44,628 bases of DNA from Chromera velia (Eukaryota > Sar > Chromeraceae), in assembly GCA_018398765.1 (NCBI GenBank), contig JAHBMJ010000634.1, positions 1 to 44,628 on the forward strand. Reading direction: 5' to 3'. Every line of letters starts with the position of its first letter. Within the stretch, counting starts at the first letter, position 1. The translations under genes and the position numbers were made by a program. This document shows positions 22,844 through 44,628 of the stretch, in pieces. The notes under the pieces were generated by a model. The model saw nothing but the letters and a program-made list of their open reading frames with translations, was not told the DNA's origin and searched no databases.

Positions 22844-22919
22844 CGGTCTGAATATAGTGCAGAGTGTGAAGTTTCAACCATTGTGGGTCGATCTGAGTGA
22901 AAAGCAAGCAGAAGCATTT

Positions 22920-23182
22920 CGTAACGATGTGAGCGTCTGAGTGACAAGAAGTGGTTCCATGTGTCAGAATGGAATGAGCCGCGCGCATGCCGAGCCTAGC
23001 CGCATGCATGGCGTCGCGCCGTCTATGAGTCAATACACATGCAATGCAAGTCTATGCAGGTCAGTCAGTCTGAAAGCAATAGAGCATTGCTTTAGAGAGA
23101 AGTACGAACCTTGCATGACAGAACTTGAACTTACGACCTATGAGCTCCGTTATGCTAGCCAACTAACTGCCACTCTCCAACG
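22920..23182 (+). repeat. 5' LTR, 263 bp
   Basis: Begins CGTAACGATG and ends CTCTCCAACG. The usual TG...CA ends are replaced by CG...CG, with a minimal CGT/ACG inverted end. It differs from the 3' copy by G at 22992 where the 3' copy has A at 26148. Confidence 0.9.
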
Positions 23183-23200
23183 TGGTAGCAGAGTGGTCGA
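23183..23200 (+). other. Primer-binding site, initiator Met tRNA type
   Basis: TGGTAGCAGAGTGGTC abuts the 5' LTR with no spacer. Its first 11 bases complement the 3' end (...CTCTGCTACCA) of metazoan-type initiator Met tRNA. The same sequence with one change follows the LTR of the second copy at 43455. Confidence 0.82.
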
Positions 23201-23373
23201 CCCGCTCAGATAAGGTAGATTCGTTGACCGTCTTTGACTGGTCGAATGAAGGTGTTGTCGCATCGTTCTCAGTTGGCGATTCCCTGAAGAGCGACGCACA
23301 CAGCTACCCGAAAACATTCACAGGGACTTATTTCCCCGTGACAGGCTCCTTGCAGTTTCCTTTTCTTTGAAGA

Positions 23374-24879
23374 ATGTCCAATCGGATGGTCGTGATGTCT
23401 GTGACGGATCGTTTCAGTCATTTTGTTTCGCTTGTTGAAGACTTTTCGGAGAAGTATGCGAACGTGTCCCTCAAGGAGGTGCGGAAGAACGGTGAGGCCT
23501 TCTTGCACGAGAGTCAACAACTGGTGGAGAAGCTTTCAGAGGTGGTAGGGGGCTGCCAACCGGCCGCGCCCACCCTTGAAGAGGAAGGGAAGGGCGATGA
23601 AGCAAAACAACGTCTGACCGGAAAGAAGCCGAAAGCACGCAGGAGTCGAAGATTGACGGCAGCAGCTTGGGCCAACAAGCAAGCGGCAGAGAAGCCAATG
23701 GCATCACAGCAGCCATCACAGCAGTCACCTGGAGATCAAAAAGCCGCTTCTGTGGGGAAAGAGAAAGGGAGAGGGAGGAGAAAGCAGGAAGGGCGCATTT
23801 CATGGCGCCGTTTACCAGTAAGGTCAGAGGGTAAGAGTCGCAGTGCGGTCGCGCGATTGGGAGAAGGAGGAGGGCGACTGCAGTCAGAAGGGCGGGGGTT
23901 TGGGAACAGCATCCAAGGCTCTCGTATGAATGTTCCGAGCGCTGTCGCCATGAGACAGGCAGGATTTGAGCCGCATGATATTTTGAACGGCCGAGGTGAC
24001 AGTATGCGGTTGCGTGGCTCACCGCACGATGGCCTGGCGGGTGAGAACACTGTGAGAGCCAGATGGGGGAGTGTGTCCCCTGGCTTTGAGACGGAGGCAG
24101 GCGTTGTGTCTGGACAGGCAGTTGATGGAGAATTCGATTTTGGCGGGATGGATGGAGATGAGTTGATGGAAGAGGGCGGTGTTGATGTGATGGAAGAGGG
24201 AGGCACGTGGAAGGAGACGCCCCACACGACATTTGATTTTCCGGTTCCGTCTCCATCAGAAGAAGTGGTGCCGATGAGGCTCGGCTTAATCGAGCGGAGG
24301 CTATTCCCCGACGAGATTGGAGCTGGGTCGCAGTTCGGCCAGACAGAGGGTGGAGAGAGACGAGATGACTGTGCAGGGCGGTCAGACGTGGAAACAGCAC
24401 GCGAGACTGCTTTCAGGAAACACGGAGACGGGCGTGATTTAGTGAAGACAGGCAGAGCAGAAAGAAAGAAACAGAAGCGGCAGGAGAAGAAGGAGAGACA
24501 GAGACAAGAAAAACATGAAAGGGAGTTGAATTCATTGAGGGAAGAGAGGCAAGGGACGGTGGAAGTTGCGGTGTCGAGGCAAGCGAGACGAAAGCAGGAG
24601 AGGGAGGAGGTGAAGGAACGTGAAAAGGAGAGGGCAAAGGAGACGGAAAGAAAAAAGAAACGAACAGTTCAGCAGACGTCTGGTGGGCTTTGCAGACCAC
24701 CTCAGTACGACCCTCTCGTGCGAGAGTACTGGCGAGATCTTTCCTTTCGGGTGCGGACGTTGGGCGCGGATTTCGTACCAGAGATGACAGGGGTTGGCAC
24801 GGCTGACTGGCATGCCTTCTTAGCACGTTCTCGCCAAGGTGTTGAGCCGTTTGTCCCTCAGGTGTGGCACGGGGTGTGA
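23374..24879 (+). CDS. Single ORF of the LTR element, 501 aa, gag position, unrecognised
   Basis: A single uninterrupted frame starts 191 bp after the 5' LTR. Residues 1-65 are predicted to be helical (MSNRMVVMSVTDRFSHFVSL...). Residues 65-200 are very basic and Gln/Arg/Lys-rich. Residues 200-300 are acidic and Gly-rich, with the near-repeat ELMEEGGVD then VMEEGGTW. Residues 345-435 form a long Lys/Arg/Glu/Gln coiled-coil-like stretch. The C-terminus (PPQYDPLVREYWRDLSFRVR...WHAFLARSRQG) looks folded. I see no CCHC knuckle, protease or reverse transcriptase. Position alone suggests a Gag or nucleic-acid-binding packaging protein. The second copy (43646 on) has the same frame broken by two stops and a one-base deletion. 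The last 511 bp recur after the N at 25094. Confidence 0.75.
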   Translation: MSNRMVVMSVTDRFSHFVSLVEDFSEKYANVSLKEVRKNGEAFLHESQQLVEKLSEVVGGCQPAAPTLEEEGKGDEAKQRLTGKKPKARRSRRLTAAAWANKQAAEKPMASQQPSQQSPGDQKAASVGKEKGRGRRKQEGRISWRRLPVRSEGKSRSAVARLGEGGGRLQSEGRGFGNSIQGSRMNVPSAVAMRQAGFEPHDILNGRGDSMRLRGSPHDGLAGENTVRARWGSVSPGFETEAGVVSGQAVDGEFDFGGMDGDELMEEGGVDVMEEGGTWKETPHTTFDFPVPSPSEEVVPMRLGLIERRLFPDEIGAGSQFGQTEGGERRDDCAGRSDVETARETAFRKHGDGRDLVKTGRAERKKQKRQEKKERQRQEKHERELNSLREERQGTVEVAVSRQARRKQEREEVKEREKERAKETERKKKRTVQQTSGGLCRPPQYDPLVREYWRDLSFRVRTLGADFVPEMTGVGTADWHAFLARSRQGVEPFVPQVWHGV

Positions 24880-25093
24880 AAGAATTAGCATGGTACTACG
24901 GAGTTTGCGTTGTGTATAACGGTGTGTGAATTCGTTTGGCTTTAGAATTCTTTGGTTGTCTGAGCGGCTGTGCCTGTTCTGACAGCATCCGACGGCATTG
25001 ACGTTGGAAGTTGTTCATTTGTTGTTAGCTCTTGGTTGGTTCTTTTGCCTCGCTTGTCTGTTTGTTGCAAGCTTGTTCGTAAATGTGAGCCAG

Positions 25094-25819
25094 NCTGTGC
25101 AGGGCGGTCAGACGTGGAAACAGCACGCGAGACTGCTTTCAGGAAACACGGAGACGGGCGTGATTTAGTGAAGACAGGCAGAGCAGAAAGAAAGAAACAG
25201 AAGCGGCAGGAGAAGAAGGAGAGACAGAGACAAGAAAAACATGAAAGGGAGTTGAATTCATTGAGGGAAGAGAGGCAAGGGACGGTGGAAGTTGCGGTGT
25301 CGAGGCAAGCGAGACGAAAGCAGGAGAGGGAGGAGGTGAAGGAACGTGAAAAGGAGAGGGCAAAGGAGACGGAAAGAAAAAAGAAACGAACAGTTCAGCA
25401 GACGTCTGGTGGGCTTTGCAGACCACCTCAGTACGACCCTCTCGTGCGAGAGTACTGGCGAGATCTTTCCTTTCGGGTGCGGACGTTGGGCGCGGATTTC
25501 GTACCAGAGATGACAGGGGTTGGCACGGCTGACTGGCATGCCTTCTTAGCACGTTCTCGCCAAGGTGTTGAGCCGTTTGTCCCTCAGGTGTGGCACGGGG
25601 TGTGAAAGAATTAGCATGGTACTACGGAGTTTGCGTTGTGTATAACGGTGTGTGAATTCGTTTGGCTTTAGAATTCTTTGGTTGTCTGAGCGGCTGTGCC
25701 TGTTCTGACAGCATCCGACGGCATTGACGTTGGAAGTTGTTCATTTGTTGTTAGCTCTTGGTTGGTTCTTTTGCCTCGCTTGTCTGTTTGTTGCAAGCTT
25801 GTTCGTAAATGTGAGCCAG
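25094..25819 (+). other. N followed by an exact 725-bp duplicate of 24369-25093 (probable assembly artefact)
   Basis: 25095-25819 repeats 24369-25093 at a constant offset of 726 without a difference I could find; the N sits exactly between the two. The duplicate carries the C-terminal 169 or so codons of the 501-aa ORF and its 3' flank. It should not be annotated as a second gene. Confidence 0.88.
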
Positions 25820-26059
25820 ATTTTTTTTTCTTTGGTCTACCGTGGAGTGTGTCACCGACCGCGTGTGGATGCGGTCTAGGAGGGGGAGGTGGCACGGTGT
25901 AGGGAAGAGTGAGACGACGTGATTGAATCAGATTTAAGACGGCATCACTGTATGACTCGGTCTGAATGGACAAATGAATAAATGGAAAAAATTCGTTTCT
26001 AGATCGATGCTTTCAGCTTGTTTGTTGTTCTTTTTCTTCGGCCAGCGTAGACGTGGCCT

Positions 26060-26075
26060 GGAGGGAGTGGTGGTA
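26060..26075 (+). other. Polypurine tract before the 3' LTR
   Basis: GGAGGGAGTGGTGG ends three bases before the LTR, where plus-strand priming occurs in LTR retroelements. It contains two T interruptions. Confidence 0.6.
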
Positions 26076-26338
26076 CGTAACGATGTGAGCGTCTGAGTGA
26101 CAAGAAGTGGTTCCATGTGTCAGAATGGAATGAGCCGCGCGCATGCCAAGCCTAGCCGCATGCATGGCGTCGCGCCGTCTATGAGTCAATACACATGCAA
26201 TGCAAGTCTATGCAGGTCAGTCAGTCTGAAAGCAATAGAGCATTGCTTTAGAGAGAAGTACGAACCTTGCATGACAGAACTTGAACTTACGACCTATGAG
26301 CTCCGTTATGCTAGCCAACTAACTGCCACTCTCCAACG
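26076..26338 (+). repeat. 3' LTR, 263 bp
   Basis: Same length and ends as the 5' copy, with one base difference, and followed directly by the CATTT target duplication. Confidence 0.9.
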
Positions 26339-26343
26339 CATTT

Positions 26344-37860: not shown

Positions 37861-40797
37861 ATGGCATCAGACTGGGCCCGTGTCTACGCGGGGTGTGCCA
37901 AAGTGGGCCAGCGCATCCTGGAAAAAGCTTCTCAAGAGACCCGAACAGACAAATACTTATACGAAGGCTCTGTCGCCTGTCTACGACAGGCCCTTGCGCA
38001 TGTGGAATGGCAGGATTTTGACCCCGAGCGCCGCCGAGAATTTTCACCAGAAGATCTGTCGACAGATGAGTTGGAGAGGAAGTACACGTCTGACCTTTCC
38101 GCCTTCAAAGCACCCTCATTCGTACCTGACGTCAATGAGTTGCCGCACTCTGATGCGATGCAAACAGCTTACAGAAGTGGCCGTTCTCCATTGACTGAGA
38201 AGGACACCTTGGAAGCCCCTGGCCCGACAAGCTCGAGTGCCGCCCCCGAGACGAGGGTCGGAGAACTGTCTGCAAGGAGTGGTGAAGAAGCCGAGCTTCC
38301 TGGAAGCTTTGAGCCTGTGTCTGCAGGTCTCGGGATGTCGGTCGTAGATGAGACTGTTTCAGGTGTGCCATCGGGAGAGATGCGTCTTTCGGAGTCCAAG
38401 CGACAGAGGGAGGAGACGGGGGAGACGGCAGTCTCGTTGAAGGAGACGGGATCGGTAAGATGGGAAGAGGGGGGGCTACCACAACGGCAACGGAGGGAGG
38501 TGGCAGTGCCTGCCTCGCCCCTGTCTCGTATGGCAAATTTTGGGGGGTTATTTGTTGGTTTGATGGGGGGAACAGTCGCAGAGTCGTGGAGGCAGTTGTC
38601 AGGGAGGTCTGATTCGGGGGGGGGGCAGTTCAGTCTTCAGTCAGCAGTCCTTTCAGACGCAAATTCAGAACGTATCGGGCAGGCCCTATGCAAGCTGCGG
38701 GGGGCAGCCCTGAAGCTCGGTCAGTTTTTGAGTATGCAGGACGAAATGCTTCCTCCAGCACTGCGATCGGCTTTGGAGAGAGCGCGTGCGTCAGCCGACG
38801 TGATGCCTCGGTATCAATTGGAGAAGGTCCTGAAGACGGAGCTGGGGGAGGACTGGGGGGGGCGTTTTGCGGAATTTGAGGAGCAGCCGTTTGCAGCGGC
38901 CTCGATAGGACAGGTTCACAGGGCCTCGTTGTTTGATGGAAGGAGGGTGGCAGTGAAGGTTCAGTATCCGGGGGTGGATAAGAGCATCGACTCGGATTTG
39001 AACAATCTGATGACGCTTGTCAAGTCAGCCTGCCTGCCTGCGGATGTCTTGGGGAGTGACAAATGGAGTGTAATGTGTCGAATGGACCAGGGCTCTTCTT
39101 CCCTTCTCTGTGTTTGTCCTGTTTCTCCCTTCTCTATCTGGTGAATGATCTGGTCTTGTGGAGTCAGTCGGAAAGCCTGCAGGAGGATTGAGAAGAGAAA
39201 CTTTTTAGGTGTGTATTGCGGATGTGTTCTGGGCTGAGAACCTGTGTTGCTGATCAGATCTGTACGCGACTTGAGAGAAAAGGCCCCATCGAGAAGTGTA
39301 AGGAGACAGAATGAATGCATGCATGCGACTGCGCTCCCATGTAGGAAACTTTGGATACGTCAATTTGTCGATCTCCTTCTTTTTTTGTTTTCTTCCTTGG
39401 TACGTGCAGATACACAAATTTGTTACCAAAGAATTTATTTCTTGACGTTCTCGCTCGGGAGATTCGGAGCGAGTTGGTTGCCGAGTGCGACTACGAGAAC
39501 GAGGCGAGGTTCTACAAACTGTTCAAACACCTGTTCAAAGACGAGAAGGGTATTCATGTCCCTGATGTCGTCTCTGAATTGTCCACTCGCCGTGTGCTGG
39601 TGACGGAGTATGTAGATGCCATCACGTTGAGAGAAGCAGCTGCTCTCTCGCAAAGCATTCGTGACTCTATTGGCATTCGGCTACTCCGTCTGTGTCTAAA
39701 AGAACTTTTCGTATTCAAACAAATGCAAACAGACCCGAACCCGGGAAATTTCTTCTACCAACCGAAAGGAGACACGCTCTACTTGATCGACTTCGGCGCA
39801 GGTAAGTGGGAGGGACGGACTTTTTTTTCCTCGTCTCTAAGCTTCTCGCGCGCCAGTGCCTCTCTGGGGCCTTCTTTCATGCTTCCGTCAGCCTCTTTTC
39901 GGTCTCTCTTCAGCTTTCCTTCACCCTTCTTTCAGGGCTCCCTCCCCTACCTTGCCCCTGGATCTCAACCGCATCCTCCTCTTTTCCTGTTGTCTCTGCC
40001 CCCTTTTGGTTTCCTGCATCATGTCATCCATTTTCTCGTCTGTCCTCTCCGCTCGCCTCTTCTCCACCCCTCTTCTCTTCTCCTTTCTTCTTTTTCCACT
40101 TAATCGTCGACGAATGCGATTCATCGCCGTAGAGGGAGGTGCTTTAGACAAAACGCCACACGAGACCTTCTTCAGAACTTTGGGTTCTTCTGTTCCCGTA
40201 GATCATTACCGCATGTCTCCGGTATGATCAAATGAAAATAAATAAAATGCAGGGAGGTCCTACAAGGACACCTTCGTCGACGATTATCTCCGTGTCGTTC
40301 ACGCGGCCTCTCTGAGAGACTGGGACCGCGTGTACTTCTACTCGACCCGCTTGGGGTTCATTGACGGCACAGAGCACCCCGACATGCTAGCTGCTCACTG
40401 CGAATCCGTGATGGCTGTAGGGGAGCCCTTCCGGACAGATTCAGAGGGGGGCATTTTCGACTTTGGAAGAAGTGGAGTGAAAGAGAGAATGGTCGAGCTC
40501 GGCCCCGTGATGGTCAAATACAGGAAGAGACCGCCTCCCCCCGAGATCTACTCCCTGCATAGAAAGCTGGCGGGATGCTACCTTCTGTGCATCACACTGA
40601 GGGCCCGTTTTGCGTCCAGCCGCATGTTTTCGGACGTTTTCCGTGAATACACATTCCAAGAGCCGGACCCCTTCGAAGCTGCGGGGCGCCCCTCACCGCC
40701 TCTCGACATCCCCGCAAGGCTGCGTCTGATGGAAATGCGGAAGGAAACGTCGGGGGAGGGAGCAAAGGCAAACGTCGTGGAAGGAAAGATTGTATAG
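37861..40797 (+). CDS. COQ8/ADCK (ABC1, UbiB-family) atypical kinase, 699 aa
   Basis: Exons 37861-39023, 39410-39801 and 40253-40797 join with matching phases. The splices restore family sequence exactly: NNLMTLVK-YTNLLPKNLF and DFGA-GRSYKDTF. Residues 1-75 are a conserved-looking N-terminal region, and 85-220 are a low-complexity linker. From about 280 the ABC1 core follows: the KxGQ motif (ALKLGQFLSMQDEMLPP), the Ala-rich AAAS loop at about 345, the VAVKVQYPG lysine at about 366, QTDPNPGNF at about 495 and DFG at about 514. COQ8 proteins bind ATP at the inner mitochondrial membrane and support the coenzyme Q synthesis complex. The C-terminal half matches the mitochondrial COQ8 type rather than plastid ABC1K. 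No obvious mitochondrial presequence is seen at the chosen ATG, so an upstream exon is possible. Confidence 0.92.
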
Positions 40798-43191: not shown

Positions 43192-43454
43192 CGTAACGAT
43201 GTGAGAGTCTGAGTGACAATAAGTGGTTCCATGTGTCAGAATGGAATGAGCCGCGCGCATGCCTAGCCTAGCCGCATGCATGGCGTCGCGCCGTCTATGA
43301 GTTAATACACATGCAATGCAAGTCTATGCAGGTCAGTCAGTCTGAAAGCAATAGAGCATTGCTTTAGAGAGAAGTACGAACCTTACATGACAGAACTTGA
43401 ACTTACAACCTATGAGCTCCGTTATGCTAGCCAACTAACTGCCACTCTCCAACG
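43192..43454 (+). repeat. 5' LTR of the second copy
   Basis: Same 263-bp length and the same CGTAACG and CCAACG ends as the intact element, with about six base differences. Confidence 0.88.
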
Positions 43455-43645
43455 TGGTAGCAGAGCGGTCGACCCGCTCAGATAAGGTAGATTCGTTGAC
43501 CGTCTTTGACTGGTCGAATGAAGGTGTTGTCGCATTGTTCTCAGTTGGCGATTCCCTGAAGAGCGACGCACACAGCGACCCAAAAACATTCACAGGGACT
43601 TATTTCCCCGTGACAGGCTCCTTGCAGTTTCCTTTTCTTTGAAGA

Positions 43646-44628
43646 ATGTCCAGTCGGATGGTCGTGATGTCTGTGACGGATCGTTTCAGTCATTTTGTTT
43701 CGCTTGTTGAAGACTTTTCGGAGAAGTATACGAACGTGTCCCTCAAGGAGGTGCGGAAAAACGGTGAGGCCTTCTTGCACGAGAGTCAACAACTGGTGGA
43801 GAAGCTTTCAGAGGTGGTAGGGGGCTGCCAACCGGCCGTGCCCACCCTTGAAGAGGAAGGGAAGGGTGATGAAGTAAAACAACGTCTGACCGGAAAGAAG
43901 CCGAAAGCACGCAGGAGTCGAAGATTGATGGCAGCAGCTTAAGCCAACAAGCAAGCGGCAGAGAAGCCAATGGCATCACAGCAGCCATCACAGCAGTCAC
44001 CTGGAGATCAAAAAGCCGCTTCTGTGGGGAAAGAGAAAGGGAGAGGGAGGAGAAAGCAGGAAGGGCGCATTTCATGGCGCCGTTTACCAGTAAAGTCAGA
44101 GGGTAAGAGTCGCAGTGCGGTCGCGCGATTGGGAGAAGGAGGAAAGCGACTGCAGTCAGAAGGGCGGGGGTTTGGGAACAGCATCTAAGGCTCTCGTATG
44201 AATGTTCCGAGCGCTGTCGCCACGAGACAGGCAGGATTTGAGCCGCATGATATTTTGAACGGCCGAGGTGACAGTATACGGTTGCGTGGCTCACCGCACG
44301 ATGGCCTGGCGGGTGAGAACACTGTGAGAGCCAGATGGGGGAGTGTGTCCCCTGGCTTTGAGACGGAGGCAGGTGTTGTGTCTGAACAGGCAGTTGATGG
44401 AGAATTCGATTTTGGCGGGATGGATGGAGATGAGTTGATGAAAGAGGGCAGTGTTGATGTGATAGAAGAGGGAGGCACGTGGAAGGAGACGCCCCACACG
44501 ACATTTGATTTTCCGGTCCGTCTCCATCAGAAGAAGTGGTGCCGATGAGGCTCGGCTTAATCGAGCGGAGGCTATTCCCCGACGAGATTGGAGCTGGGTC
44601 GCAGTTTGGCCAGACAGAGGGTAGAGAG
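43646..44628 (+). pseudogene. Broken copy of the 501-aa element ORF
   Basis: The frame opens at 43646 like its intact homologue. It is stopped by TAA at 43940-43942 (a Trp codon in the other copy) and by a second TAA at about 44186 (a Gln codon there). It is shifted by a one-base deletion near 44516, where the other copy has two T's in GGTTCCG. The rest remains highly similar. It cannot make the full protein. Confidence 0.88.

Follow-up and report, generated by a model that had tools for sequence, protein, structure and literature searches.

Long terminal repeat (LTR) retrotransposons that lack a polymerase are sorted by a simple rule in the excerpt of PMC6022998 at hand: those carrying Gag only are terminal-repeat retrotransposons with GAG domain (TR-GAG), and those without domains are either large retrotransposon derivatives (LARD, 2 kb or more) or terminal-repeat retrotransposons in miniature (TRIM). 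Plant TR-GAG retrotransposons go back to Chaparro et al. 2015 (via excerpts of PMC6022998, PMC4608283, and PMC8704663), and a moving Arabidopsis element of this type carries a GAG open reading frame (ORF) of 562 amino acids (excerpt of PMC8704663). As far as these excerpts go, elements without pol have mostly been portrayed either as non-coding or as bearing a plain Gag. Here, we analyze an element of Chromera velia located on the plus strand at positions 22920-26338 of contig JAHBMJ010000634.1 (assembly GCA_018398765.1; contig C633 in our numbering), whose full 44,628 nucleotides are referred to as the window. The element has every part of an LTR retroelement except pol, and its single gene encodes a protein of 501 amino acids. 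With a probability of roughly 0.7, we read it as a non-autonomous Ty3/gypsy-type LTR retrotransposon of ~2.7 kb, whose lineage keeps a non-Gag protein. The observations behind this reading are its anatomy, copies flanked by target-site duplications (TSDs), cis signals shared with resident Ty3 elements, and diverged homologues of the protein with no listed polymerase nearby, some of them with long frames.

Anatomy, copies, and class of the element

An earlier note, prepared from the window sequence alone, described a recent, polymerase-less element with 263-bp LTRs, a CATTT duplication, an initiator-Met-type primer site, and a purine tract, all of which were found again on rereading the sequence (Table 1). 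The LTRs differ by 1 mismatch in 263 bp, and the plus strand between them holds one ORF of at least 150 amino acids only, without a Pfam match and hence not a pol ORF. This ORF of 501 amino acids, rightly reported as intact and without a CCHC knuckle, exceeds chance length, as 500 order-1 Markov simulations of the internal region produced none longer than 308 amino acids. The primer site TGGTAGCAGAG is complementary over 11 bases, and no further, to the 3′ end, with CCA added, of a tRNA-like gene at C1326:155552-155624 that ends in CTCTGCTA; a pattern search had returned two places, this one being identified as initiator Met by eye, and scanning the window against Rfam and for tRNAs gave nothing useful. 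A small hairpin of the form GAG(C/T)GG...C(C/T)GCTC is possible where the primer site ends (window 23191-23207, and the leaders of regions L051 and L052); it was rejected as a special signal, the fold z-scores of six leaders being -1.9 to 0.1.

The genome comprises 177.8 Mb in 4040 contigs, and its 58 light-harvesting matches fit an origin that is most likely a photosynthetic eukaryote. It contains the LTR in at least 41 places, a lower bound because 40 of 69 candidates were scored, and twenty regions were then fetched. Nine insertions have both outer flanks readable, when each of two arrays is taken as one, and a 5-bp TSD is present in six of them: CATTT in the window, AGCCT in C1611, GATAG in C2830, GTACG in C2206, AGCTG in C3769, and GTACT around the array in C4032. 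LTR pairs of six single-unit copies show 1 to 9 differences per 263 bases (the pair in C3130, which is out of register, was excluded), and of the two solo LTRs examined, the one in C999 is flanked by TACAT on both sides and the one in C2008 has flanks without a match. Two loci, L029 (C4032) and L035 (C90), are arrays in which three LTRs alternate with two internal regions. The single outer GTACT duplication around the former fits later unequal crossing over, a process proposed for the Wukong arrays of maize in the excerpt of PMC4528315. The earlier note had itself named two findings that would overturn its view, LTRs recurring genome-wide without internal region or TSDs and an ORF that is a single-copy host gene. 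Neither applies: the internal region recurs together with TSDs, and a single-copy host gene is rejected by at least 118 matches of the protein in the genome.

Some loci of the family deserve a separate remark. In C1642 (L047:1-486), two head-to-tail LTRs are separated by only TG, the second being cut by the contig end, which resembles a junction of two LTRs, the trace of a deletion, or a join made in assembly. A copy in C195 (L032:1-648) carries a deletion from the interior of the primer site to approximately base 492 of the ORF. The solo LTR in C2008 (L043) and a full element in C2120 (L046) have an identical 5′ flank and are perhaps two alleles.

In terms of class, near-identical direct LTRs, 5-bp TSDs in most readable insertions, a tRNA primer site, and a purine tract place the element among LTR retrotransposons. 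It resembles TR-GAG elements, as these appear in the excerpts cited above, in having two LTRs, one ORF of similar size, no reverse transcriptase (RT), RNase H, or integrase, and a presumed dependence on mobilization in trans; it differs in that their ORF is Gag (or Gag plus protease), whereas in its own neither a Gag nor a CCHC domain was found. LARD and TRIM elements likewise combine LTRs, a primer site, and a purine tract with a lack of pol, and the three-LTR arrays recall those of the Wukong TRIMs (excerpt of PMC4528315). With ~2.69 kb, the element falls within the size given for LARDs in PMC6022998 and is too long for a TRIM (<2 kb, non-coding), but that same excerpt expects no coding domain, and this element, although free of known domains, has an ORF with relatives at ~60 diverged places. 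It cannot be assigned to Ty3/gypsy by the order of RT before integrase because it has no pol; its kinship to that group rests on shared ends and junctions. The layout noted earlier as similar to TR-GAG or LARD, with two LTRs, primer site, purine tract, single ORF, and no pol, is supported, as is the earlier view of a recent, polymerase-less element, and the element is best read as TR-GAG-like in layout, yet without a Gag match and not plainly non-coding, that is, as a variety of non-autonomous LTR retrotransposon. No description of it was found in the open-licence literature within the terms searched.

The 501-residue protein and its relatives

The earlier view of the protein as one of unknown family holds for the families searched in the profile and structure comparisons that the note had proposed. 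Pfam returned no family at E values up to 1, neither did NCBIfam or PHROGs, sequences of solved structures gave no match of note (best E 0.26), and Foldseek searches of BFVD and PDB had no hit at E 0.001, the query being a poor model with a mean predicted local distance difference test (pLDDT) score of 52. Coiled-coil resemblances to KDM4C or BICDR1 (E of at least 0.26) and to RT loci (short, best E 0.012) were rejected. This single-sequence model predicts helices at residues 3-59 (pLDDT ~80), disorder to ~350, one helix at 355-434, and short C-terminal helices, and charge alternates along the chain, with isoelectric points of 11.2 for residues 60-150, 4.6 for 150-340, and 10.6 for 340-435. 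The protein is thus probably non-Gag and nucleic acid-binding, and our best guess for its role is an RNA-binding adapter or packaging helper.

A Gag diverged past recognition, which would make the element a true TR-GAG whose product builds or joins the particle, is unlikely but the main rival, given the Gag-like position and size of the ORF, the helical N-terminus, the basic stretches, and the layout shared with TR-GAG elements in the excerpts available. However, the Gag of a Ty3 element in the same genome passes the Retrotrans_gag cut-off, and the 501-residue protein has no Pfam match even at E 1; moreover, the CCHC motif is absent, the structure searches recovered no fold (with the poor model as query), and the predicted arrangement of 60 helical residues, long disorder, and one long helix contains no obvious capsid.

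Relatives of the protein suggest that it matters to its lineage. Among the matches listed in the genome search, for which 86 of 1897 candidates were scored, ~24 places belong to the same family (95-100% identity) and ~60 are diverged, with 28-62% identity over parts of the protein; the figure of 60 comes from hand grouping, automatic merging giving 85 places including the ~24. Fourteen of the 60 are free of stops in every matched stretch, and in six of these the frame reaches at least 450 amino acids. Two more distant, broken relatives lie outside the matches listed. One (L050, in C3607) aligns with the N-terminal part of the window protein at z 6.3 against shuffles and with its basic helix at z 7.9, the latter value being composition-biased, while the other (L052, in C3383) aligns with the C-terminal REYW part at z 4.7, barely over the best shuffle. 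The N-terminal part of the L052 protein resembles that of L050, lying ~205 nt past the primer site as compared with ~202 in L050 and ~221 in the window, and a shared basic stretch was recognized by eye only. The LTR of the relative in C3383 forms, on our reading, 15 same-strand pairs among the matches listed, 13 of which enclose a listed homologue; the spacing is 1.6-2.8 kb in 14 and 4.2 kb in the remaining one (C1841). The chief reason to think that the 501-residue protein matters is that long frames turn up repeatedly at diverged places. The earlier note had held that the protein matters for mobility on the basis of one frame conserved in two copies; a better argument that it matters is its presence at ~60 diverged sites, part of which retain a long frame.

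The two-copy argument, in turn, was rejected, since the ORF of the second window copy (43192-44628) is broken: its first 292 codons include two in-frame TAA stops, and on balance one base is missing (983 vs 984). Two more stops follow around codons 301 and 305, and this second pair may be due to the deletion. Of the 11 full-length ORFs, four are open (the window, C4032 at 17969, C1611, and C2206), and seven contain stops. When the other ten are compared with the window ORF (23374-24879), 78 of 99 distinct variants are C>T or G>A, and the rate per site is 0.177 at CpG and 0.116 at CpA as opposed to 0.045 at CC and CT. Such CpG- and CpA-heavy changes look like those from methylation or from decay resembling repeat-induced point mutation. 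The observed numbers of synonymous, missense, and stop changes (24/64/11) are close to those of a context-aware neutral simulation (29.7/62.9/6.5), with a slight excess of stops, a number as high as 11 being reached in 4.8% of simulations. Selection among young copies was rejected on these grounds.

Cis signals shared with resident Ty3 elements

The genome is rich in retroelements, with at least 150 matches each to RVT_1 (1759 candidates) and RVT_2 (514 candidates). One region, L049 in C1474, holds a Ty3-type element with RT and with Retrotrans_gag and protease matches above cut-offs, its Ty3-capsid and CCHC matches being below them. Its 320-bp LTR ends in ACG, followed by the same 11-base primer site, and most of the matches listed begin at query base 333-336, reading CGTTACG. 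This element and that of the window are alike in their CGT...ACG ends, in the 11-nt primer site at the LTR, and in the GGCA before the 3′ LTR, and they differ in the Gag, which is an ordinary one, the protease, and the RT carried by the former. The CG...CG ends pointed out earlier are thus present, but the oddity implied by that remark is not, as they are found in a pol-bearing Ty3 family of the same genome.

Genome-wide searches extend this likeness. The string ACGTGGTAGCAGAG occurs 44 times, compared with 6 for the reversed control. The junction GGTGGCACGTAACG has 96 matches (47 exact and 49 with a single mismatch), the control giving 37; a homologue of the 501-residue protein lies within 4 kb upstream of 34 of the 47 exact and 29 of the 49 one-mismatch matches and is lacking for 33 of the 96, and none of the 96 has a compared RT within 7 kb. 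A further junction search gave 152 matches (control, 38), of which 100 were listed: 49 starting with CGTTAC were used, 43 of CGTAAC type are covered by the GGTGGCACGTAACG search, and eight with two mismatches were omitted. A compared RT lies 2.4-2.9 kb upstream of 7 of these 49 (3/34 for GGTGGCACGTTACATTG, 4/14 for GA[AG]GGCACGTTACGTTG, and 0/1 for a third kind), a homologue of the protein upstream of none. These counts indicate two sets of elements that have their ends and junctions in common; the first carries pol, the second the 501-residue protein. The pol-bearing Ty3 elements share the primer site, the GGCA|CGT junction, and the CGT...ACG LTR ends, and this is why they are likely, as judged from sequence, to mobilize the other set.

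Under the preferred reading of a non-autonomous Ty3/gypsy-type element, the LTR would drive the RNA of the element, initiator-Met tRNA would prime at the site adjoining the 5′ LTR, and RT, RNase H, and integrase would be supplied in trans by resident Ty3 elements with matching cis signals. The single gene would yield the non-Gag protein, apparently kept by the lineage through deep divergence, which most likely binds the RNA of its own element via the basic linker and basic helix and may assist its transfer to the nucleus or its uptake by Ty3 particles. More tentatively, and with odds rather against it, the families may be a long-lived satellite lineage that parasitizes Ty3 within one genome, its dedicated RNA-binding adapter capturing the particle or its enzymes. 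A different protein kept over deep divergence suggests that a retrotransposon parasite can need, and select for, a helper of its own, and the matched cis signals name Ty3 families as candidate mobilizers, making trans-mobilization and packaging directly testable.

It should be noted that several points weigh against this reading. Three of the nine insertions (C658, C3130, and C90) have no matching TSD, stops occur in 46 of the 60 diverged places, and purifying selection on the protein is not seen among the young copies. The comparison of L050 with L052 over 69 aligned C-terminal codons, in which 40 third positions are identical against 58 and 54 at the other two, gives dN 0.19 and dS 1.59 by NG86, in favor of the reading, but a much weaker dN 0.31 and dS 0.45 by YN00. 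The LTRs of the L049 family and of the window element align only partly, and only 150 of the 1759 RVT_1 candidates were scored, so that a pol-bearing relative could be missed. Finally, trans-mobilization and, above all, a part for the protein in packaging and RNA binding are proposals.

Two other explanations concern the origin of the set and of its enzymes. The elements could have arisen by deletion from larger Ty3 elements in which this ORF was an extra gene beside gag-pol, and it would then be a leftover; common LTR ends, primer site, and junction would follow, and yet the idea is very improbable. None of the 85 merged homologous places has an RT on the same strand within 6 kb among the 149 RVT_1 matches compared, which suggests that these places are polymerase-less; nearly all C3383-type LTR pairs are closely spaced, and one would not expect a leftover ORF to remain open in families that have diverged. 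Still less probable is mobilization by another resident class such as Copia: RVT_2 matches, whose positions relative to the homologous places were judged by eye for each contig, are plentiful, and the primer site is not Ty3-specific, some one- or two-mismatch matches following other LTR-like ends, but the RT found alongside the CGT...ACG ends and the GGCA|CGT junction is of Ty3 type, in a comparison that covers Ty3 ends only.

Length of the window element and feature coordinates

The 3.4 kb implied by the earlier coordinates of the element is most likely inflated. Positions 24369-25093 and 25095-25819 are identical at 725 of 725 bases with a single N between them, and LTR-to-LTR spacing in ten other units of the fetched loci is 2430 in seven, 2429 in one, 2424 in one, and 3390 in one, the last (C4032) holding its own one-N joint. 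Since the window spacing of 3156 minus 726 is 2430, the repeat is most likely a false join, and the element would be ~2693 bp rather than ~3.42 kb. That the repeat is genuine, as the assembly presents it, and the window copy a 3.4-kb variant is hardly tenable given the N between identical halves, the absence of this repeat from every other fetched unit, and the similar joint in C4032.

Table 1. Coordinates of the element and of the second family copy in the window
Feature	Position	Strand	Basis or remark
5′ TSD, CATTT	22915..22919	+	sequence reading
5′ LTR, 263 bp, CGTAACG...CCAACG	22920..23182	+	LTR-to-LTR comparison
Primer-binding site TGGTAGCAGAG, 11 nt, abuts 5′ LTR	23183..23193	+	tRNA complementarity
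Leader, 191 bp	23183..23373	+	97-100% identity among fetched copies holding the leader
ORF, 501 aa, probably non-Gag protein	23374..24879	+	N-terminal helices, basic linker, acidic middle, basic long helix, C-terminal part
3′ untranslated part, beginning (first copy)	24880..25093	+
N plus exact 725-bp repeat of 24369-25093, most likely assembly join	25094..25819	.	LTR spacing of other copies
3′ untranslated part, remainder	25820..26075	+	94-98% identity among fetched copies holding the remainder
Purine tract GGAGGGAGTGGTGG, ends 2 bases 5′ of 3′ LTR	26060..26073	+	sequence reading
3′ LTR, 263 bp	26076..26338	+	1 mismatch vs 5′ LTR
3′ TSD, CATTT	26339..26343	+	sequence reading
Second family copy, cut by contig end	43192..44628	+	LTR 43192-43454, leader 43455-43645, broken ORF from 43646

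The joint in C4032 (L029:5714) is accompanied by a partial repeat and resembles that of the window, which indicates that joins of this kind arise at repeats in the assembly. Elsewhere in the window, an ORF at 37861-39141 includes the first part of an ABC1 atypical kinase domain (PF03109, E 2.8e-27) and is probably an exon of a host gene.

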